From: Candidatus Binatia bacterium
Lineage (GTDB): Bacteria > Desulfobacterota > Binatia > HRBIN30
Assembly: GCA_026415395.1 (NCBI GenBank)
Contig: JAOAHD010000001.1
Coordinates: 1-64,000, forward strand
Direction of reading: 5' to 3'
Length of the DNA stretch: 64,000 nucleotides
This document shows positions 8,140 to 20,921 of this stretch, one piece after another (positions within the stretch are counted from its first letter, which is position 1; each line of letters starts with the position of its first letter). The translations under genes were made by a program, and so were the position numbers. The notes beneath the pieces are model-generated. The model was not told where the DNA came from. It saw only the letters and a program-made list of their open reading frames with translations, and ran no database searches.

Positions 8140-10167
8140 TTAGAGGTCGTTGTCGTCGCGCAAGTCGATGACCAGCGGCTGCGCGTTGTTGGTCGGGTTT
8201 CCGTCGGGATTTTGCCCTGTCACCCGCACCTCTGCGGTGCAGCGTGCCGGAGAGCCGGGGAAGATCGACGTGACAGTGTCTAGCTGAAAGACCAGGGGAA
8301 TTTGGGCGCTCACTCGGGCATTGCTGCCCATCGCAACTCCGGCAAAGGTGCGACTCAACTTCGGGATGAGAGCCGGTTGGACGAGACCGCCGGGGCAGGT
8401 CCCAGGATTCACATGAACGGACACGTTGTCCGGCGCCGGTCCCGTGCGGATTTTAACCGTCACCAGCTTCCTGAGTTCTGTTTTCCCTCTTGGAAGGCGG
8501 AGCGTAACCGGTTTGATTTGTTCAAGCACGAGTCTCGCATCTTGGTCTCGGCTGACGAAATCGTTCTCATCGACAACATCGAGGGGAACACGCACGCTTT
8601 CGTTGCCCGGAACCGGGTCGATGTTATCCGTAGCCACAGGCTCGGCGGTGAACACAAGTTCGCAGCGAGCGGGATCTCCTCCGTCTGCCGTGATGAACTC
8701 CGCGGAGCGAACACTGAGCCACACAGTGGCCTTGGCTTGTGCGGCGGGCGCGAGTTCGACTTGGTCGGGGGTGTTCGTAAACTGCCCGAAATTCGCACCA
8801 CCCACGGTGCCTGTTGGGCACGTGCCGTCCTGCGCCACTAAACGGAAGCGTGCCTTGTCTCCCCACGTGTCCCCGTGTCGCAGGGTCACAGTCAGGGGCA
8901 CATATACCTCGCTCTTCCCGCGGCGTATTCGGACTTTCGCCCCCGGGGGCGGGACAACCACCGCATCGTGCAAGCTGGATGATGCGGGATAAATAAAGCT
9001 GAGGCCTGCCAGGTCGTCGGCTCGGATGCCCGCGCATCGACCGTCAAAGTGGGCAAAGGCAAACATGGTGGCGTGGTGATCGCCCGAGTGTCCTAAGCCG
9101 ATCGTGTGGCCAAGTTCGTGGGTGACCACCTCAGCCAAGTTGCACGTGTTCCAAAACGGGCACTGGTCCCAGCCATTGTTGAAGAGAATCTTCGCCGAGG
9201 TGATTCGTTGGAAGGTGACGCCGTTGACTTCGGTCGTGTCGGACTTTTCCGCACAGTATCCCCCAACCGCCAAAATCCCCGAGCAGAACCAAGGGTCGGA
9301 AAGCAGATTGTTCGGGTCGTTGAACATAATTTGGGTTGCGGGGCTACAGTCCAACTTCCCCGGTGCCATGTCCCCGCCTCGCTGTAGGAACAGCGTGGCA
9401 ATCGCTGGTGAGGTCCAGGCTTCCATGGCGGCATCGATTGCCACGTTCGTTTGTTCGGCGCCCAGGGCCGCGTCGCCGGCTGGATCGACAAGGTATGTGA
9501 CCGGCTCTCCGCGATCGGCCTGGAACCAACGAGCAGCGGTAGACATGAGGGCGAAGGGAGCTCCGTACGTGTCGAGCGCCGCGTCGATGTCGCCGCTCAG
9601 CGGTGCCGCTTTGGGCACCGCTCGTCCGGTCAGCGTGGCACGGACGGAGCTCCGCAATGCTTGCCAGTCGTACACTGCTTGAGTCTGGGCGGGGCGAAGA
9701 GATCTGCCATCCCATTCGATTGCTGTACTGCCGGGCCCGAGATCGCGCAACGCGAGCGAGCCTCCAGCCCCTTGAAGAATTGTGTACTTGCCGAGTGCCA
9801 GGCTCGTAGTGCCCCACGCACCGTCGGCCCGTCGACTAGCAAATACCAACACTTTTTCTCCGGGTCGGTACACCGGCACACCGAAGAACCGTGCGGTGAC
9901 TTCCGGGGTTTCTCCCCCGAGTTCAGTGAGTTCCAAGACTGAAGCGGCTTGGCCCTTCAGCGTTTCCGCAACGCGCAGGCGGACAGTCGTCGACACCAAC
10001 TGCGACGCTGCGTCGTACTGTGGGGCGACCTCCTCCACCTCCCCGACCACGACCGCATCCGCTTGCTGCGCGAGCTGTTGTTCGTTGGCGATGATGAGCG
10101 TGGTCGGCCACGCCGACCAAGGAACTAGTCCACAGGCAATGACGATTATGACATGTCGGGTGCGCAT
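8140..10167 (-). CDS. Secreted matrixin-like zinc metalloprotease
   Basis: A 675-residue exported protein. The start at 10167 has GGAGG 9 nt upstream and yields a signal peptide (MRTRHVIIVIACGLVPWSAW). The metzincin zinc site HELGHTIGLGH spans residues 350-360, and a Met (HATMF) follows as in the Met-turn. The region before it (about 28-190) resembles the propeptide-like N-terminus seen in bacterial matrixin-like proteins. The C-terminal 280 residues look like beta-sandwich modules. Many Cys pairs (CSPATQ, CAEKS, CPFWNTC) suggest disulfides outside the cytosol. The substrate is unknown. It lies 185 bp downstream of the phospholipase-like gene on the same strand. Confidence 0.85.
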   Translation of the reverse strand: MRTRHVIIVIACGLVPWSAWPTTLIIANEQQLAQQADAVVVGEVEEVAPQYDAASQLVSTTVRLRVAETLKGQAASVLELTELGGETPEVTARFFGVPVYRPGEKVLVFASRRADGAWGTTSLALGKYTILQGAGGSLALRDLGPGSTAIEWDGRSLRPAQTQAVYDWQALRSSVRATLTGRAVPKAAPLSGDIDAALDTYGAPFALMSTAARWFQADRGEPVTYLVDPAGDAALGAEQTNVAIDAAMEAWTSPAIATLFLQRGGDMAPGKLDCSPATQIMFNDPNNLLSDPWFCSGILAVGGYCAEKSDTTEVNGVTFQRITSAKILFNNGWDQCPFWNTCNLAEVVTHELGHTIGLGHSGDHHATMFAFAHFDGRCAGIRADDLAGLSFIYPASSSLHDAVVVPPPGAKVRIRRGKSEVYVPLTVTLRHGDTWGDKARFRLVAQDGTCPTGTVGGANFGQFTNTPDQVELAPAAQAKATVWLSVRSAEFITADGGDPARCELVFTAEPVATDNIDPVPGNESVRVPLDVVDENDFVSRDQDARLVLEQIKPVTLRLPRGKTELRKLVTVKIRTGPAPDNVSVHVNPGTCPGGLVQPALIPKLSRTFAGVAMGSNARVSAQIPLVFQLDTVTSIFPGSPARCTAEVRVTGQNPDGNPTNNAQPLVIDLRDDNDL

Positions 10168-10352
10168 TGAGTTTGTCCTCCGGGAGGACAACCAATGCGC
10201 TTGCCGTGCCAGCTAATCGTAAACACTACGTCACGTTTTCGATGTGTGGCCCGTACCGGCAGCCAATTGACGTTTTGGGCAAAACGCCAATTCCGGTTCC
10301 CTCGCGAACTCGTGAACTTCCCATCCCGCAAGAAACTCGCGGCAGCAAGTGC

Positions 10353-11998: not shown

Positions 11999-12388
11999 TC
12001 AAGGCCGGCGGTGCTCTTGCAGCACGCGCCAGCGCGCTCGCTGCTCGCGGTCGAGCACGGCCAAGGCATCCCGATCGGCGAGCACGCGCAGGCGCCCCCG
12101 TTCTTGAGCGAGGTTCGTCCAATCGCTGTGTGTTCCCGCACTTGCATTGCGCTCGGCTTCTCGCAGTCGACGGGTGAGTTCGTTCCACGTGGCTTGCGCA
12201 CGATGCACCAGGAACTGCAAACGGGTGCGCTGCTCCGCCGAGAGCTCCAAGGCATCCGCTTGCCGGAGCAAGGCCCCCGCGAGCCAATGCGGCTCCTCCG
12301 GATCCCCCGCCCCAGCCGGCCGCACGCCGTACGCTGCGACGAAGCCTAGCATCGTCAACGGCACGACAATACGGAACGTGCGGCCCAC
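11999..12388 (-). CDS. Small exported helical protein, Spy/CpxP-like
   Basis: A 129-residue protein with an N-terminal signal-like segment (FRIVVPLTMLGFVAAYGV) and a mature part of two or three amphipathic helices. The line LELSAEQRTRLQFL resembles the LTxxQ motif of periplasmic Spy/CpxP and heavy-metal-sensor proteins. GTG at 12388 is chosen because GAGG lies 9-10 nt upstream, inside the end of the preceding cytochrome gene, which suggests translational coupling. A longer ATG start at 12427 would overlap that gene. It is the last member of the ECF-sigma operon, where a periplasmic stress or chaperone role would fit. Family assignment is tentative. Confidence 0.6.
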   Translation of the reverse strand: MGRTFRIVVPLTMLGFVAAYGVRPAGAGDPEEPHWLAGALLRQADALELSAEQRTRLQFLVHRAQATWNELTRRLREAERNASAGTHSDWTNLAQERGRLRVLADRDALAVLDREQRARWRVLQEHRRP

Positions 12389-12398
12389 AGGCTGATCC

Positions 12399-13007
12399 TC
12401 AGTGCTTGCCGGGAGCCAAGGGCACACCCTTACGGGTCGAGATGATGTAGGCTTCCAAGGCCTTCATCTTTTCGTCGTCGTCGGCAAGGCGCGGACCTTC
12501 CATCGGGTTTTCAATGCACCAGTTGATCATATCCCGGAGCAAGGCGATCCGTTTCAGTTGGGTTTGGAATTTGGGATACGTCTCCGGATGAGTGTTGCTG
12601 GCATCTGGGTGACACATATCGCAGGAGATTCCGTTGGTTCCGAGTTCGGGCGAGTGAAAGAGCTTGTAGCCCTCGTCGATCGTCCGTTTCAGTTCGGCTT
12701 CCCAAACCCGCATCTCTCGCTCCGTGTGGGCCGCACCGCCGTGAGCCAACTGTGTCTTCTCCTCATACTTGCGCATGAGTTGATTTGCGACGTCGCGTGC
12801 TTGCTCACCGGACATACGCTCGCCGGGAGCGACACCAGGCACGACGACGCTGGTTTGCCCATCGCACAAGCCCACGACCTTGCTCTTGCCGTCGGGCGCA
12901 GGCGGGAGTTCATGCTTCGGCATTTCTCCCGCGCTCACGTGCAGGGCAGCGGCCCCAGCAACAACCCCGACGATGGCCAATGCCAGATAACGAATTTTTC
13001 TCACCAT
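12399..13007 (-). CDS. SoxA/TsdA-like mono-haem cytochrome c
   Basis: A 202-residue periplasmic cytochrome. The start at 13007 has GGAGG about 8 nt upstream and gives a signal peptide (VRKIRYLALAIVGVVAGAAA). There is one haem site, CDMCH (129-133). The segment around MINWCIENPMEG (about 160-171), followed by DDEKMKALEAYI, resembles the conserved C-terminal part of SoxA and thiosulfate dehydrogenase TsdA domains. There the extra Cys (C164 here) sits near the haem. Only one haem is present, unlike the di-haem TsdA. It follows the phosphoesterase by 39 bp and is followed by the Spy-like gene after 10 bp. It is a likely electron carrier, and its substrate is unknown. Confidence 0.8.
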   Translation of the reverse strand: MVRKIRYLALAIVGVVAGAAALHVSAGEMPKHELPPAPDGKSKVVGLCDGQTSVVVPGVAPGERMSGEQARDVANQLMRKYEEKTQLAHGGAAHTEREMRVWEAELKRTIDEGYKLFHSPELGTNGISCDMCHPDASNTHPETYPKFQTQLKRIALLRDMINWCIENPMEGPRLADDDEKMKALEAYIISTRKGVPLAPGKH

Positions 13008-13046
13008 GGTCCCTACCTCCCTAGTCTCGCCCACCGACACGCCCGT

Positions 13047-14195
13047 TCAGTAGGACGGCCAATCCACGCGCCCTTGAAACTCTTTGGCCAGCTCGGCCAT
13101 TCCCGCCTTACCGCGGCGAACCGTATCGAAGGTCACAGTCATCGGATTCCGATCCCACAAGACGTAATGTTTGTCCGCTTGGCCATCAGCACGCAGAGCC
13201 ACCGTACCCCAACCGCAGCCATCGAACTGGTTGAACGGATCGGCACGGACCATTTGGACTGTGAGCGGGGGAATGCCCTGCGGCGCGTACGGCCACGGCC
13301 ACGCGGTCGACAACACCCCATGGAAGGTGATGTTGCCGATCCGGTTGGTGAGCACTTGGTGGGTATGAGCGTGGATTACGGTGACCGACTGGAACGGTGC
13401 AAGCAGTTTTTGGACTTCTTCGGCGTCTTCCGTCCAGAAATTCCAGGGCCGGTAGTACTTGTACAGCGGCGAGTGAGAGAACACGACGATCGGGGTCTTT
13501 TTGTCGACTTTCGCCAAGTCCTTCTTTAGCCAATCGCGCTGTTCCTCACCGACCATGAACGGGCGGCCGTTAGGGTTGTCGAGCTGAGCCATAGCGAGCA
13601 TCCGTTCCATCGGGGTCATCTTCGGTTCTGTCCAGTAATCCTCGACAATCACCGAATTCAGAACGATGAAGTGCACTCCCTTGTGGTCGAAGGAGTAGGT
13701 CGGCTCACCGAACATTTCCCGCCACTTCTCGCCCATATCCAAGTACCAGTCATGCTCGCCGACCATCATGCGCACCGGCGCTTTCAGTTGATCGAGAATT
13801 TGCTTCCCGATTGACAGCTCCTCAGCCTTACCGAGTTGCGCCAAATCACCGCCGAAGAGAACGAAATCCGGCTGGGGGTCGAGGGCGTTCACATCATCCA
13901 CCGCTTTCTGGCATGCTTTCACGAAGCGGTGATTCAGCCCCTTGTCCAAGATGTGGGTGTCAGAGATGTAGGCAAAGGTAAATTTGGGCTGCGTCTCTTT
14001 TGCCTCTGCCACACGGATGAGCTGGAAGGAATGCGGCGGGAATCCCTTCCAGAAAGCCGTCGCGACTGCGGCTGCTTTTGCCGCTGTCTTAAAAAAGTCG
14101 CGCCGGCTCAGCCGCGGCAGCTCGGCAAAAAACCGCTCGCGCTCCGCCAGGTACTCCTGTTTCTTCCTCTCCAATGGAAGTACGTACTTTGCCAT
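13047..14195 (-). CDS. Tat-exported calcineurin-like metallophosphoesterase
   Basis: A 382-residue protein. The start at 14195 has a GGAGGG site 6 nt upstream. A twin-arginine motif LSRRDFFK (R31-R32) precedes a hydrophobic Ala-rich segment, so the folded metalloenzyme is probably exported by Tat. Calcineurin-type metal motifs appear in order: SDTH, FGGDLAQ, GEHD (GNHD in most relatives), FSHSPLY and HAHTHQ. It should hydrolyse a phosphoester in the periplasm. It lies between two cytochrome genes in the sigma-factor operon (29 bp after the peroxidase), so it may act in the same stress response. The substrate is unknown. Confidence 0.88.
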   Translation of the reverse strand: MAKYVLPLERKKQEYLAERERFFAELPRLSRRDFFKTAAKAAAVATAFWKGFPPHSFQLIRVAEAKETQPKFTFAYISDTHILDKGLNHRFVKACQKAVDDVNALDPQPDFVLFGGDLAQLGKAEELSIGKQILDQLKAPVRMMVGEHDWYLDMGEKWREMFGEPTYSFDHKGVHFIVLNSVIVEDYWTEPKMTPMERMLAMAQLDNPNGRPFMVGEEQRDWLKKDLAKVDKKTPIVVFSHSPLYKYYRPWNFWTEDAEEVQKLLAPFQSVTVIHAHTHQVLTNRIGNITFHGVLSTAWPWPYAPQGIPPLTVQMVRADPFNQFDGCGWGTVALRADGQADKHYVLWDRNPMTVTFDTVRRGKAGMAELAKEFQGRVDWPSY

Positions 14196-14224
14196 TTCGA
14201 TCCCTCCTTTGCCGCACGATGTGC

Positions 14225-15367
14225 TCACGGGGCTGGCGCGGCCACCAATTCCCCGGCGCGCGTTTTGCGCGATAACTCCTTCAACTCCTCCCAGTCGAAG
14301 TTCTTCCCTCCGCTCTCATCGGTGAGCGACTTCATAAATTCGATGATATCGGCAATCTCTTCGCGGGTGAGGTTGAGCGGCCGCATCCCGCCATCCAGAT
14401 TCGGGTTCGGCTCCCCACCGCGGTTGTAAAAGTCCATGACTTCTTCGAGCGTCTTCAAGCTGCCGTCGTGCATGTACGGGGCCGTGAGCGCCACATTGCG
14501 CAGGCCTGGCGTTTTAAACGCACCTATGTCTTTGGGCTCGCGGGTGACGATCCAGCGCCCCAGGGCTTCCACTCCCGGCTTATGGGCTAACGACGACTCC
14601 GCTTCCTTATCGCGCCGCGTTTGAATCGCCTGCGCTTCGCGCGCCAGTTGCTCGAAGTTGCCCTTCATTGCGACACCGATGTTGTGGAACTTATTGTCGG
14701 TAAAGTACGGGAAAGACGTATTGAATTCGTGGCACGTGACACACCGCCCCTTGCCTTGAAACAATTGGAAGCCGCGTTTCGCGGCATCACTCAAGGCGTT
14801 CTTGTCGCCCGCTAGAAAACGATCGAACGGTGAGGCGAAGGGAGCCAGTGTGCGCTCGAACGAAGCGATTGCTTGCACGATGCGCTCGATGGTCACTTGC
14901 GGAGAACCAAACGCCTGCTGGAACAAAGGCGGATACTCGGGCACGCTGGCCACAGCCTTGACCACCGCTTCGTGCGACGGCTGCCCCATTTCCACCGGGT
15001 TAATCAGCGGTTGCTTGGCCTGCTCCTCCAACGTTGGAGCGCGGCCGTCCCAAAACTGAACCTCGCTGAAACCAGTGTACAGCACCGTGGGAGAGTTGCG
15101 CGCACCGGCCTGCCCACGGATCCCCGTCGCCACAGGTTTCCCGTCTGCAAAACCCCGCAGGGGGTCATGGCAGGACGCGCAAGAGACTGTTCCATCCGCC
15201 GAGAGACGCTTGTCAAAGTAGAGCTTTTTCCCGAGTTCCACCTTCTCTTTCGTTAAGGGATTTCCTTCGGGAATCACCGGCTCCAGCACTCCCTTCGGCA
15301 AGTAAAGGGCAAAGGCCCCCATCATGGAAACCATCAGCTTCCGTACCCCGCGCTGCACTTCCATCAT
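14225..15367 (-). CDS. Di-haem cytochrome c peroxidase / MauG family protein
   Basis: A 380-residue protein with two c-type haem sites, CASCH (63-67) and CVTCH (208-212), in the spacing of bacterial cytochrome c peroxidases and MauG. Family landmarks are LGKKLYFDKRLS, ARNSPTVLYTGF, FWDGRAPTLEEQA and LRNVALTAPYMHDGS. It should reduce hydrogen peroxide using small cytochromes in the periplasm, or perform MauG-like oxidation. The N-terminus is short but hydrophobic enough for export. The start has a GGAGGGGAG site. It lies 11 bp after the anti-sigma gene, so it is probably a direct target of the ECF sigma factor. Confidence 0.93.
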   Translation of the reverse strand: MMEVQRGVRKLMVSMMGAFALYLPKGVLEPVIPEGNPLTKEKVELGKKLYFDKRLSADGTVSCASCHDPLRGFADGKPVATGIRGQAGARNSPTVLYTGFSEVQFWDGRAPTLEEQAKQPLINPVEMGQPSHEAVVKAVASVPEYPPLFQQAFGSPQVTIERIVQAIASFERTLAPFASPFDRFLAGDKNALSDAAKRGFQLFQGKGRCVTCHEFNTSFPYFTDNKFHNIGVAMKGNFEQLAREAQAIQTRRDKEAESSLAHKPGVEALGRWIVTREPKDIGAFKTPGLRNVALTAPYMHDGSLKTLEEVMDFYNRGGEPNPNLDGGMRPLNLTREEIADIIEFMKSLTDESGGKNFDWEELKELSRKTRAGELVAAPAP

Positions 15368-15378
15368 CTCCCCTCCGT

Positions 15379-16194
15379 TTACAGTTCGCGACCCACAGAC
15401 CGACCAAAATCCTTCAGGCCATCACTTGCCACGCCTGCGTGGCAGCTCGCGCAGGCACGCGCCCCGTCCTGCTCGCCTTCGCTGACCAACACGTACGACA
15501 CTTCCCCGTGGTTCCACGCAATGAACTTTCGGCCATTGTGCGCAAAGGTGCGAAACTCGCTCCGGCCAAGCCGGACTCGTGCACCTTGTGCCGGTAAATC
15601 TCGCTTTGCTGCCACGACCAACACTGCCGGACCATTGCCCGAGCGATACACCACCACTCCGACATCCTCGCCTTCGGCCCGCAAAACATTGGCACCTTCC
15701 GGAACCATCCCATCGGGCAAGCGTAAGGTGCCCGGGTGGTAGAACACCAAACGTTCTGCCAGCCAGCGATCCAGCACGGCGGCGTCCGCACTGCGCGTCA
15801 AAAGCGGCATCTCCCCACTCCGGACCGCTTCATACACCCGGTCCGCCAGCGCCACCCTTGGGGAAACTAGAGCGTTGCTGCCTCCACCGTGAAGAGCAAG
15901 CCATGCCACCACGACGGCCGCCAACAAGGCTGTAACGGCAGCACTCGGAACAATCCACCGCCACGAAGCTTCCCTCTCCACTAAGAGTGCTCGGACTTTC
16001 TGCTCCAGTGCGGGTGGGCAATCGTCTAACACGTAGTGGCGACGCACCGACTCCGCGATCCATTGCTCCACCTGCAGGCGCCGCGCGCATGCTTGGCACC
16101 CCTCGAGGTGCTCCTCGAGCTCGACCGCTCGATCTACCCCGAGCTCGTGATCCACGTAAGCAGAAAGGAATTTGGAAAACTCGTTACAGTTCAT
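15379..16194 (-). CDS. Transmembrane anti-sigma factor with zinc-finger N-terminus and C-terminal CXXCH motif
   Basis: A 271-residue protein. The N-terminal cytosolic part is a ZAS-type zinc-binding anti-sigma domain (C3, then H29-xxx-C33-xx-C36). A single membrane helix (about 81-101) leads to a periplasmic domain of about 165 residues. That domain ends with CASCH (248-252), the canonical haem c attachment motif, 19 residues from the C-terminus. The gene overlaps the ECF sigma gene by 11 bp, as usual for a sigma/anti-sigma pair, and the peroxidase gene follows 11 bp later. The sigma-binding role is well supported. Haem attachment is an inference from the motif and its periplasmic side. Confidence 0.88.
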   Translation of the reverse strand: MNCNEFSKFLSAYVDHELGVDRAVELEEHLEGCQACARRLQVEQWIAESVRRHYVLDDCPPALEQKVRALLVEREASWRWIVPSAAVTALLAAVVVAWLALHGGGSNALVSPRVALADRVYEAVRSGEMPLLTRSADAAVLDRWLAERLVFYHPGTLRLPDGMVPEGANVLRAEGEDVGVVVYRSGNGPAVLVVAAKRDLPAQGARVRLGRSEFRTFAHNGRKFIAWNHGEVSYVLVSEGEQDGARACASCHAGVASDGLKDFGRSVGREL

Positions 16195-16774
16195 GGCCTT
16201 CGGTTCCTGTCTTGCGGTTACGGCCCCAGCCGCGATCCTCGAGCTGCCCTAAAAGCTGCGCTCGCAAAAGCGCGCGGCCGCGCGCCAGCCGCGACATAAC
16301 TGTGCCTATGGGGCAGCCGAGAATTTCGGCAATTTCTTTGTACGACAACCCCTCGACGTCCCGCAGGTACACGGGAAACCGATACACCTCCGGCAAATTT
16401 TCCACCGCCCGCCGGATCTCGAGCGCCCACTGCTGCTCGACCGCAAGCTCCTCTGGCCCCCTGGCCGGCTCCGGTTCGGTACACGTTCGATCACGTCCAG
16501 CGGCTGCGACGCGGCGCGACTGCTCCCGTTGGGCGTCGATCCATGCATTGCGCAACACGATGAACAGCCAAGCGCGAATGTTCTGCCGAGGGGTAAGCTC
16601 TGCCCAATGCTCGATCGCTTTGAGCACGGTTGCCTGCACCAAATCCTCCGCCTCGCCCCGCCCGGCCAACTGAACAGCAAAATTGTACAGCGAGCGCAGA
16701 TGGGGCAACAGTTTTGCCGCAACCTCGTTCGTCTGTTGTCGCCGGAGCACAACGGGACCTCGACGTTTACTCAC
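16184..16774 (-). CDS. ECF-type RNA polymerase sigma factor
   Basis: A 196-residue protein with sigma region 2 ([15 protein letters not shown] to [19 protein letters not shown]) and region 4 ([37 protein letters not shown]), which is the ECF architecture. It should direct RNA polymerase to its own operon and perhaps the divergent surface gene. The GTG start at 16774 is given. GTG 16750 has a better GAGG site and is a real alternative. Overlap with the downstream anti-sigma gene implies coupled translation. The operon continues with peroxidase, phosphoesterase, cytochrome and Spy-like genes, so the regulon probably deals with envelope redox stress. Confidence 0.93.
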
Positions 16775-17099
16775 CCGCTACTACGAGGAGCCTTGGCGGT
16801 TTATTCCCATCCCATCCAGAAATCGTGGGTCATCCGCCGCCAGGGGCGACATCAACGCATTTTCGCCCGCAGGACGACTCATCATCGTTGACCTTTCTTC
16901 GCGATTGCCGCTTCCTCCCCTTGCCCGTATTGCGCAGAGAACCCGAGCTGGCGGGAGACCAGGTTGTGGGGTTCTTTTGAAACTGGCTCTCCTCGCAAAC
17001 CTGGGCAGGACAGCAGGCAGAGCCCTTTTGTCTGGTTGGTTTGCTGTTGTCAAACAGTCCAATTTCGTTGTAGACACCGCGGGCGAGGGAGGGATATCG
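16775..17099. promoter_or_regulatory. Divergent regulatory region between ECF sigma operon and cytochrome surface protein
   Basis: About 325 bp with no supportable gene separates the ECF sigma operon (minus strand) from the propeller/cytochrome gene (plus strand), so promoters for both must lie here. I could not pick an ECF-type -35/-10 pair with confidence. The long plus-strand frame reading across this stretch is rejected as coding, because a strong ribosome site and signal peptide lie at its 3' end. Confidence 0.5.
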
Positions 17100-20000
17100 G
17101 TGAAAAGGGTCGTAGCGTGGACGGCGCTTCTGGTGTGGGTCTTTGTCGCGCCGTGGAGCAGAACGTCAAAGTGTTGGGCAGGTTCTTATACGCTTTTTGA
17201 GAGTGGACCTGTACGCCCGTTAGCGCTTTCCCCTGATGGAACGAAGCTATTCGCGGCCAACATTCCCGACGGCCGCTTAGAGGTGTTTTCGATCGGCGTC
17301 AACGGCACGCTGACGCATTTGGAGTCAGTGCCGGTGGGACTCGAGCCGGTAGCGGTAGCAGCGCGCACGAACACCGAAGTTTGGGTGGTGAACCACCTGT
17401 CGGACAGTGTGAGCATCGTCGACCTTTCCAGTTCACCCGGGCGTGTCGTTCGCACATTGCTCGTGGGCGATGAGCCGCGCGATATCGTTTTTGCCGGTCC
17501 AGGGAAGAATCGAGCATTCATCACTTGTGCGCGTCGGGGTCAGAACAACCCCAACGATCCACAACTGACAACCCCAGGCGTCGGCCGCGCGGATGTCTGG
17601 GTATTTGACGCGAACAATTTAGGGAACACACTCGGCGGCACGCCGCTCACGATCCTCACGCTTTTCGGCGACACGCCGCGCGCCCTCGCCGCGACGCCGG
17701 ACGGTAGTCGAGTTTACGCCGCAGTGTTTCACAGTGGCAACCAAACGACGGTGATCAACGAAGGGCTGATTTGCAACGACTCCAATAAAACCGACACCGT
17801 TGTTCCTGGTCCATGCACGATTTCTGGGACCACGGTGCCCGGCGGTCTCCCGCTCCCCACCGCCGATCATACTGGGGCTGCCGGACCTGACGTGGGCCTC
17901 ATCGTGAAATGGAACGGCTCGTACTGGGCGGACAAAGCGTGCGCTGGCGGATCAAAGTATGGATGGAGCTGTAAGACCGATGCTGATTGCCCTGGAAGCG
18001 TGTGCGGTCGGAACTGGAACAATGCGGTCAAGTTCAACCTGCCGGACAAGGACGTGTTCGTTATCGACGCGATGGCCAACCCGCCCGTGCAGCTTGCGGG
18101 CAGTGCGGGTTTTTACACCGGGGTGGGGACGATCTTGTTCAACATGGCCGTTAATCCCGCCAACGGGAAAGTGTACGTGACCAATTTCGAATCCCGGAAC
18201 GAGTTTCGCTTCGAGGGGCCCGGGATTTATGCCGCACAGTTCGGTGGCACCACCGTACAAGGCCACTTGGCGGAGTCCCGCGTCACGGTGCTCTCCGGAA
18301 GCAGCGTGCTGCCCCGGCACCTCAACAAACACATTAACTACGACCAACGACCGGCACCTGCGGGAGTCAAGGACCATAGCCTGGCTACACCTTTGGATAT
18401 GGCCATCACGAGCGACGGGCAAACTCTCTACGTCGCCGCTTTCGGGTCGAGCAAGGTCGGCGTGTTCAATACCAGCGCCCTAGAAAACGACACCTTTGTT
18501 CCGAACAACGCGAACTACATCAGTGTGAGCGGTGGTGGACCTGCGGGTTTGGCCCTGCACGAAGGTTGGCAGCGACTTTATGTGCTCACTCGATTCGACA
18601 ACGGTATCGCCATCGTCGACACGAGCACGAAAACGGAGATCGACCATGTGTCTCTCTACAACCCGGAACCACCCAGCGTAGTGAACGGCAGGCGCTTTTT
18701 GTACGACGCTTTTTATACGTCGAGCAACGGCGAGGCTGCCTGCGCCAGTTGCCACATCTTCGCCGACCTCGATAGCCTGGCGTGGGACCTGGGAAATCCC
18801 GACGACGAAACGCAAACCAATCCCTTACCGGTCAAGCTTGCCTTTGCCATCGGTTCCGGAACATTCAGGGACTTTCACCCCATGAAGGGCCCGATGACCA
18901 CTCAAACCCTGCGCGGACTGGTCAATCACGGCGCGATGCACTGGCGGGGTGACCGCAACGGGGGATCGCAGTGGAACAACCCCGACCTGGCCTTCAAGGC
19001 CTTCAATGTAGCTTTTCCTGGACTGCTGGGGCGGACTGCCGAACTCACGGCCGCCGAAATGCAGGCGTTCACAGATTTCATTCTACAGGTGAAACTTCCA
19101 CCCAATCCAATTCGGAACTTGGACAATTCGCTCACCGCGTCGCAGCAAAACGGGCGGAATTTCTTTTTCGGCCCTCGCCGAGCGGACGGGCTAAACTTCG
19201 GTACCGATGGTGCAGACAATGCGCTCGGACATACGTGCAACGGGTGCCACGTGACGAACAGGGCGCAAGGATTTTTTGGTACCGACGGCAAAGCCAGCTT
19301 CGAAAACGAACCGCAAGTGATCAAAATCGCCCACTTGCGGAACCTTTACCAAAAGGTCGGCATGTTCGGCATGGCAGCCGTTTCCTTCTTCAACGCCGGT
19401 GACAACGGGCACAAAGGGGATCAAATCCGGGGTTTCGGTTTCCTGCACGATGGCAGCGTGGATACTCTTTTCCGGTTTCTTAACGCTACTGTGTTCAACG
19501 ACCAGAATGGCGTGGGGTTCAATGGCGGAGGCCAGCAGCGACGGGACGTCGAGCAGTTCCTGTTAGCGTTCGATACGGATCTCTTTCCAATCGTCGGCCA
19601 ACAAGTGACCCTCACCAACACGAATGCGGCCCAGGTGAACCCGCGAATCGACTTGTTGATCCAGCGCGCCGCGGCAGGTGAAACGGACCTGATCGTGAAG
19701 GGCCGATACAATGGGCACTTGCGCGGCTGGTATCGCACTGCGGCCGGGACGTTCCAGCCGGACCGAGCTAGTGAGGCGCCCTGGACGGATGCCGCGCTTC
19801 GCGCCGTTGCCGCGGTGTCGGGGCAAGAACTCACGTACACGGCGGTGCCTCTTGGCTCGGCAATCCGCCTGGGTGTGGACCGTGACGAGGACACTTTCTT
19901 CGACCGCGATGAACTCGATGCCGGCTCGGACCCTGCGGACCCGAACAGCACCCCTCCTGCGGCAACACCGACGGCAACTCGCACGGCGACCTACACCCCC

Positions 20001-20921
20001 TCGGCAACACCGACCAATACACCTCTTCCCCCGACGAGCACATTCACACCCCTGCCGCCGACGCCGACGTTTTCTCCCACCTCCACTCGGACGGCGACGC
20101 GCACCCCATCGCCAACACCAACCCCCACTTTCACGCCCACGCCGACTGCGACAGCGTCTCTCACTTCGACACCCACGATGACCATCACACCCGGAGGGCC
20201 GACCCTCACGCCGACAAACACGCCGTCACCAACTCTAACGTTCACGAACTCACCCACGCTGACGCCGACACGAACTTCCTCTCCGACTCAAACTCCCACG
20301 GAGAGTCCTACCCCCACGCTGACTTGGACCCCCACTTGGACTCCAGAACCCACCGTCACACCGACGCCGATGCCGGACGTGTTCTGCGACGGGAGCAGCC
20401 AACTGAGTTCGCCGCGCCTGAAAATTACCAAACTCTCCACGCCGGCCGGTGATGACAATCTGACTCTGACCGGATCCTGGCTGTTGTCGCCGGCGACTCC
20501 GGCACCGAACCCGGTGACCGAAGGGCTCCGCTTTGCCATTTACGATTCTTCAGGGGCATTGGTTTTCCAAAGAATCATACCCGGAGGCGTTGCCCTGTCG
20601 CGTTCCCAACCGGGGTGGTCGCTGAGTGTCGACGGCCATGTCGCCAAGTACAGCGACACCTATGCTTTGCAGGGAGACATCAAAAAGGCCGTCGTCAGAA
20701 GCTCTCGCCTTACACCGGGACTCTTCACGGTGAGCATCACAGGGAAGCTGGGCAACTTCGCCGTTGCGCCGAGTCAGCTTCCGCTTCGGGTCACCATTGT
20801 TCTGGGCAATCAGACGCGAGCACTGCTCGGCCAGTGTGCGAGCTACGCGTTCAATGGTCCGGACGGGCTGCGGCCACGCTGCAGCATCTCTAGCACCGGC
20901 AGCACAGCCATGTGTCGCTAG
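17100..20921 (+). CDS. Secreted beta-propeller / di-haem cytochrome c surface protein with Thr/Pro linker
   Basis: A protein of about 1273 residues. GTG 17100 is chosen because GGGAGGG lies 6 nt upstream and a signal peptide ([18 protein letters not shown]) follows. Residues about 35-480 form YVTN-like beta-propeller repeats ([34 protein letters not shown]). Next comes a cytochrome region with two haem sites, CASCH (548-552) and CNGCH (713-717), and peroxidase-like landmarks ([30 protein letters not shown]). A calcium-binding Asp-rich loop ([17 protein letters not shown]) precedes a Thr/Pro linker of about 140 residues. The C-terminus (about 1093-1273) is a Cys-containing beta-sandwich that resembles the end of the RCC1 protein at 23.8 kb. 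It is probably exported and displayed at the surface. The electron acceptor and substrate are unknown. Confidence 0.85.
19950..20380 (+). repeat. Low-complexity Thr/Pro-coding repeat (TPTxTPT linker)
   Basis: Degenerate repeats of ACN-CCN codons encode about 140 residues of TPT/TPS/TFTP type within the cytochrome surface protein. The tract links the haem region to the C-terminal domain and probably forms an extended spacer. Such tracts are prone to slippage and to misassembly. The Val/Gly-rich ORF on the opposite strand is a shadow. Confidence 0.85.

Follow-up and report, generated by a model that had tools for sequence, protein, structure and literature searches.

A membrane anti-sigma factor with a C-terminal haem c attachment motif, a candidate redox receptor in Binatia, Myxococcota and Acidobacteriota

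The window analysed here is a stretch of 64,000 nucleotides from a Candidatus Binatia bacterium, and the genes under study lie on its minus strand. The first encodes an ECF sigma factor of 196 residues (16184..16774; Pfam Sigma70_r2, 3.5e-14; Sigma70_r4_2, 9.4e-19), which is followed by a membrane anti-sigma factor of 271 residues bearing a haem c attachment motif (15379..16194). Downstream come a di-haem enzyme of the MauG/MbnH/CCP family with two CXXCH motifs (380 residues; 14225..15367; CCP_MauG, 6.5e-62), a calcineurin-like phosphoesterase with a Tat-like N-terminus (393 residues; 13047..14228; Metallophos, 6.2e-17), a SoxA/TsdA-type cytochrome c (213 residues; 12399..13040; SoxA-TsdA_cyt-c, 1.3e-12) and a small CpxP/LTXXQ-like protein (142 residues; 11999..12427), whose matches to Metal_resist (0.0075) and LTXXQ (0.013) both fall below cut-off. 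Because the spacings are -11 nt between sigma and anti-sigma genes, +11 nt between the anti-sigma and di-haem enzyme genes, and then -4, +6 and -29 nt, we take the series to form one tight operon, which the CpxP/LTXXQ-like gene probably closes. Farther down the same strand, beyond gaps of 119 and 161 nt, lie a Phosphoesterase-family protein (Pfam PF04185) and a large ORF (8140-10191). On the other side of the sigma gene, and divergent to it, a large lactonase-type beta-propeller protein that bears CXXCH motifs is encoded at 16683-20921 on the plus strand, with its true start probably near 17100; a protein of this type, 79-91% identical, also adjoins the pair in two further genomes (G001 and G002).

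The combination of a CCP_MauG domain with two CXXCH motifs places the di-haem enzyme in the MauG/MbnH/CCP group. Comparison with NCBIfam gives its strongest scores to the MbnH family (4.8e-76) and to MauG (5.7e-75), each below the respective cut-off, and NCBIfam returned no equivalog over cut-off for the window sigma factor, anti-sigma factor or di-haem enzyme. Enzymes of the MauG/MbnH family are not simple detoxifying peroxidases. An earlier note on this DNA, made from the sequence alone, had placed a di-haem enzyme and a cytochrome c in the operon, and the two Pfam assignments bear this out.

The anti-sigma factor consists of a zinc anti-sigma domain (residues 3-37; 16084..16188; zf-HC2, 5.7e-9), a single membrane helix (residues 81-99; 15898..15954), a periplasmic sensor domain of beta fold (residues 112-239; 15478..15861; AF2 pLDDT mostly 74-93) and the haem c attachment motif CASCH (residues 248-252; 15439..15453), after which 19 residues remain to the C-terminus. 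Its HX3CX2C zinc motif, its N-terminal sigma-binding domain and the overlap of its gene with that of an ECF sigma factor are those of a ZAS protein, and in architecture it is like anti-sigma factors of the COG5662 type with a periplasmic C-terminal domain, to which it may belong. Residues 81-99 form the only hydrophobic stretch of the protein, with a Kyte-Doolittle value of 2.30 for the best 19-residue segment and at most 1.35 elsewhere. An AF2 model computed from five sequences (mean pLDDT 76, pTM 0.53) orders the chain as anti-sigma helices, a long helix through the membrane (61-102), the beta domain and a final helix (244-253); the CXXCH sits on this last, low-confidence helix, C-terminal to all strands. 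A periplasmic C-terminus is predicted from the presence of one helix only and from the sigma-binding role of the N-terminal domain. A cytosolic C-terminus was rejected because both the hydropathy profile and the AF2 model show a single helix, which separates the zinc domain from the motif; the CXXCH, present in 30/30 members of the family described below, is thereby placed on the extracytoplasmic side, as in c-type haem proteins. The zinc domain, the one membrane helix, the CASCH at 248-252 and the periplasmic C-terminus proposed in the earlier note are thus all upheld.

The sigma gene is preceded by a putative ECF26-type promoter, GGGAATAAA-N14-CGTA (16782..16808, minus strand), which contains the sole exact GGGAATAAA of the window; the fixed-spacing pattern likewise has one exact match within the 64 kb. 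Among the matches listed for five genomes (G000, G001, G002, G006 and G021), the N14-CGTW form occurs once in each, upstream of the sigma gene. More generally, GGGAATAAA-N14/15-GT(T/A/C) is found between the sigma gene and its upstream neighbour at 9/9 Binatia loci, pointing towards sigma at five of them and, in four genomes grouped here as f5, towards a divergent cytochrome cluster. Since the motif was defined on these nine loci, independent support comes from the loci outside Binatia, where it lies within 450 bp of sigma at 7/21, compared with 17/2204 background windows. At one locus with an adjacent katG gene (L117), the promoter points towards katG. An acidobacterial locus (L123) has four matches to the motif within 8 kb (3329-, 5529-, 6573+ and 10697-), with a DUF3455 protein and a cupin encoded among the neighbours, and this cluster is a possible wider local regulon. 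The presence of an ECF-type promoter before the sigma gene, located by motif search, supports the control of the operon by its own ECF sigma factor, as the earlier note had supposed.

The ECF26 consensus consists of a -35 element GGAATA and a -10 element GT, and the mapped rpoE1 promoter of Sinorhizobium meliloti reads GGGAATAAA...GTC (PMC6180224, Table 1). The promoters found here match this RpoE1 type and have the elements of an ECF26 promoter. The window sigma factor shares 37% identity with the pSymA sigma factor, which we take to be RpoE6, and 37% with a sigma factor of Sulfitobacter pontiacus; other ECF sigma factors are similarly close. The Sulfitobacter sigma/anti-sigma pair is plasmid-borne (L079, 6003-7276) and lies beside genes for a sulfite oxidase and a cytochrome c; a GGGAATAAA-type promoter precedes the sulfite oxidase gene, which agrees with the part that RpoE1/RpoE4 play in the response to sulfite (PMC3511301). 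A profile of 30 haem-type proteins (search space 4000) scored the pSymA anti-sigma factor at E 5.5e-4 and that of Sulfitobacter at E 1.6e-4, with other proteobacterial and myxococcal anti-sigma factors at 1e-16 to 1e-27.

To define how far the haem motif extends, relatives were collected with two profiles. The first, built from six relatives and run over 148 genomes of the class, matched 72 of them at E<=1e-8; nine matches stood at 1e-80 or better, and the next at 1e-25. Among the 30 class loci that were fetched and read (one of them, L058, in part), a C-terminal CXXCH is borne by all nine proteins at 1e-80 or better and by none of the 21 next matches. The second profile, built from the nine Binatia proteins, was run over 195 Myxococcota and 396 Acidobacteriota genomes. 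At 1e-38 it matched 10 of the former and 17 of the latter; CXXCH stands at the same place in four myxococcal and 17/17 acidobacterial proteins, and is missing from six shorter myxococcal ones. The relatives at L070 and L071 turned out to be haem-less, and a profile run over 395 genomes of the window's own phylum gave matches confined to its class. A single-protein scan of genome contigs returned no relative; in plasmid records, queried with two individual members of the family, the window anti-sigma factor found no match.

The resulting haem-type set numbers 30 proteins (9 from Binatia, 4 from Myxococcota and 17 from Acidobacteriota), which are 21-50% identical to the window anti-sigma factor. 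Alignment shows that C248, C251 and H252 are invariant in 30/30, as are the zinc-domain residues H29, C33 and C36. Shuffling the window sequence yields a CXXCH in 0.3% of cases; given its invariance in all 30 clade members, CASCH is not a chance motif, and the presence of members in three phyla rules out an oddity of one genome. Absence of the motif from close orthologues, which the earlier note had named as one outcome that would speak against it, did not materialise, with 30/30 orthologues carrying it. Few further periplasmic residues are fixed across the set, and in the periplasmic half of the 30 aligned proteins no Cys, His or Met beyond C248, C251 and H252 is invariant. Residue 121 is His in 25/30 and Y234 is kept in 30/30; judging from the alignment, either could serve as second haem ligand in many members.

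In a maximum-likelihood tree of 62 proteins (L058 left out; the entries g_Myxo and gM_L083 denote one gene), a branch supported at 100/94 separates the 30 haem proteins from 32 haem-less relatives; CXXCH occurs in 0/32 of these relatives. Because the haem proteins form one clade, a single origin of the haem type fits the tree. The haem-less relatives share the zinc domain, membrane helix and sensor domain of the haem type, and close with a YWAVSDLnxxELxxF-like segment; haem-type proteins have, instead of this C-terminal helix segment, an end that runs from YxLVS into CXXCH. The anti-sigma factors of the four f5 Binatia genomes (L072, L073, L074 and L035) nest within the acidobacterial group of the tree, which indicates that these four were likely acquired by horizontal transfer.

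We next consider whether such a motif would carry haem. CXXCH also occurs in non-haem proteins. The means of haem attachment can be traced in the genomes themselves, as PF01578 proteins score over cut-off in 9/9 Binatia genomes, most of which also have frames of CcmF and CcmC size, and ResB scores over cut-off in 0/9. Since PF01578 is thus general and ResB absent among the nine, the Ccm route (system I), rather than Ccs, is likely present in these genomes. Because CXXCH sites in cells with Ccm are established as haem c sites, a haem c is very likely attached covalently to the anti-sigma CXXCH. The haem c idea of the earlier note thereby gains the attachment genes that it needs.

Inspection of the gene neighbourhoods reveals which functions travel with the haem type. 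A di-haem CCP/MauG enzyme is encoded near the pair at 15/30 loci, another di-haem protein, weakly MauG-like, at two further loci, and a full-length KatG beside it at two more (L116 and L117; 1267 and 1289 bits to the catalase/peroxidase model). The phosphoesterase and the SoxA-type cytochrome adjoin the pair at 19/30 loci (9/9 Binatia, 4/4 Myxococcota and 6/17 Acidobacteriota). At the four f5 Binatia loci a peroxidase is absent, and a cluster encoding CarboxypepD_reg, phosphoesterase, cytochrome c, SoxYZ, a multihaem c554-like protein, a cbb3-like COX1 and a FixO/cytochrome c protein stands in its place. Neighbour searches showed neither peroxidase nor cytochrome at 7/30 loci (L112, L114 and L122-L126), two of which have a subtilase. 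The cassette of MauG/MbnH-like enzyme, Tat-type phosphoesterase and SoxA-type cytochrome c, at 12399-15367 in the window and also at L106-L111, L113, L118, L120 and L121, stays together across three phyla.

A peroxidase-type or cytochrome gene lies within 1.5 kb at 18/30 haem-type loci and at 0/27 haem-less loci, counts that are uncorrected for shared ancestry. The contrast is drawn on peroxidase and cytochrome genes alone because the phosphoesterase occurs at haem-less loci as well: at 5/27 of these (L046, L047, L051, L053 and L055, all haem-less anti-sigma factors of the same class) a calcineurin-like phosphoesterase lies within 1.5 kb, with about 31-36% identity to that of the window, and the phosphoesterase was accordingly dropped as a marker of the haem type. 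Since it is also found near haem-less anti-sigma genes, this type of phosphoesterase may be associated with the sigma group at large.

We propose that a haem c on the sensor domain responds to peroxide, or to a related redox signal, and so frees the sigma factor, a reading to which we assign a probability of about one half. In this mechanism the cytosolic zinc domain would hold the ECF sigma factor, and the Ccm machinery would attach one haem c at the CXXCH in the last segment of the periplasmic sensor domain. Because no second His or Met ligand is conserved, one face of the haem would probably be open to a small oxidant. Reaction of peroxide or a related oxidant with the haem, or alternatively a shift in the redox state of the haem imposed by the periplasmic cytochrome pool, would change the end of the sensor domain; the signal would then cross the single membrane helix to the zinc domain and release the sigma factor. 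The freed sigma factor would start transcription at GGGAATAAA-type promoters, those of its own operon (di-haem enzyme, phosphoesterase and cytochrome c) and, in other lineages, of katG or the oxidase cluster. We infer the haem as sensing element, peroxide as signal and the mode of sigma release, and favour peroxide or another oxidant because peroxide-using enzymes of unrelated forms, di-haem types and KatG, recur beside the pair. Counting against this reading are the seven loci where neither peroxidase nor cytochrome was found, the four f5 loci with an oxidase cluster and no peroxidase, the likeness of the di-haem enzyme to MauG/MbnH, and the sulfite response of characterised ECF26 members. 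Extended to the family, the proposal becomes that these anti-sigma factors, spread over at least three phyla, form a class of covalent haem c receptors for peroxide or redox state, made by grafting a CXXCH segment onto an RseB-like domain, which we hold with slightly less assurance than the reading of the window itself.

The same haem could instead follow sulfur or electron flow, with periplasmic cytochromes, or the oxidation of sulfite or thiosulfate, setting the redox state that governs sigma release. The promoter type matches S. meliloti RpoE1, which belongs to ECF26 and answers sulfite and thiosulfate, and the Sulfitobacter pair, which shares this promoter type, adjoins a sulfite oxidase and a cytochrome c. 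Nearer the haem type itself, the f5 cluster includes SoxYZ, a SoxA-type cytochrome and a cbb3-like oxidase, and SoxA-type cytochromes recur at the 19/30 loci noted above. Against these links stand the lack of a sulfite dehydrogenase beside the haem-type pairs, the KatG at two loci, which is unlinked to sulfur, and the distance of the sulfite-linked ECF26 anti-sigma factors (E 1.6e-4 and 5.5e-4), those read having no haem motif. We consider this account unlikely, though it deserves to be kept in view.

A covalent haem c that binds a gas, most plausibly nitric oxide, is a less probable explanation still. It takes its model from the sCache_heme sensors, in which a preformed extracytoplasmic domain has gained a short CXXCH segment and which sense NO when fused to signalling modules, as set out in PMC12889525. 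The absence of a fixed distal His or Met from the haem-type anti-sigma factors would suit such a function, but NO-handling genes were not found among the annotated neighbours.

It is also conceivable, at rather long odds, that the CXXCH stays haem-free and acts as a periplasmic thiol-disulfide switch or a metal site. Haem attachment is predicted from sequence, a pair of Cys spaced in this way is able to form a disulfide, and the CpxP-like gene of the operon gives a weak hint of envelope or metal stress. A disulfide switch, however, needs no His, and the His is as invariant as both Cys (30/30); Ccm-type genes are present and should recognise a motif of this kind, and the haem-type pair is linked with haem enzymes. 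Least probable, and by our estimate very improbable, is that the motif monitors how much mature haem c is supplied, so that an unoccupied CXXCH would signal failed cytochrome maturation and free (or hold) the sigma factor: c-type cytochromes do make up most of the linked gene products, but KatG is not one of them, and the neighbourhoods that were annotated showed no Ccm gene next to the pair.

If the peroxide or redox reading is true, the protein would be the first known anti-sigma factor that is itself a c-type haemoprotein, and would add a new class of haem sensor to one of the commonest bacterial signal routes. It would repeat, in an unrelated domain, a route proposed recently, by which a short cytochrome fragment confers haem sensing on an existing sensor domain. 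Through the haem-type family, a connection from haem chemistry in the periplasm to transcription can be put to direct test in Binatia, Acidobacteriota and Myxococcota, all of them poorly cultured, and the pair marks its likely targets, a conserved cassette of di-haem enzyme, Tat-type phosphoesterase and SoxA-type cytochrome. Extracytoplasmic haem c sensors occur in chemoreceptors and kinases; to our knowledge, no anti-sigma factor is known as a c-type haemoprotein. The papers searched on anti-sigma factors with CXXCH, with c-type or covalent haem, or with cytochrome c peroxidase describe no covalent-haem anti-sigma factor in the text available, in agreement with the earlier note, which knew of no characterised system of this type.

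Comparison with known systems places the parts of the protein in different company. With ChrR, RsrA and RsiW it shares the zinc anti-sigma domain; that of ChrR superposes with an rmsd of 1.4 over 52 residues, and the RsrA model matches the window protein at E 4e-10, below the model cut-off. The sensing parts of these three proteins are unrelated to the haem domain. The ECF26 pairs of S. meliloti are alike in their N-terminal anti-sigma domain, one membrane segment, periplasmic C-terminal domain and promoter type, and the targets of RpoE1/RpoE4 include a cytochrome c (PMC3511301). These characterised members answer sulfite, not peroxide (PMC3511301); sulfite is the known signal of the system, haem binding by its anti-sigma factors is not reported in the available portions of PMC6180224 and PMC3511301, and the pSymA anti-sigma factor, unlike the haem type, has neither CXXCH nor zinc Cys. 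Among solved folds, the modelled sensor domain comes nearest to RseB, whose C-terminal domain superposes at Z 8.7 (rmsd 2.7 over 91 residues, 9% identity), and to the corresponding domain of MucB (Z 8.0 over about 90 residues), with 9-10% identity to RseB/MucB; at Z near 8, the likeness may reflect a common arrangement only. Unlike the window protein, RseB is a separate, haem-free periplasmic regulator of sigma-E. HasS/HasI likewise pairs an anti-sigma with an ECF sigma factor in a response to haem, but HasS is informed by the outer membrane receptor HasR and, as far as the available text goes, has no haem c of its own (PMC11442138).

The sCache_heme proteins (DUF3365/Tll0287; Geobacter GSU0582 and GSU0935) share with the window anti-sigma factor a periplasmic domain, one covalent haem c and an added CXXCH segment (PMC12889525), the haem being predicted in the anti-sigma factor. 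They differ in fold, family and outputs, and the word "sigma" is absent from that paper (PMC12889525). Membership of DUF3365/sCache_heme was rejected for the window protein: no such Pfam match appears at E up to 1, and its motif lies C-terminal to all strands of the AF2 model rather than between Cache strands 3 and 4. On the reading proposed here, the system is a sigma/anti-sigma pair of known type whose new part would be a covalent haem sensor, with sCache_heme as its closest precedent in kind.
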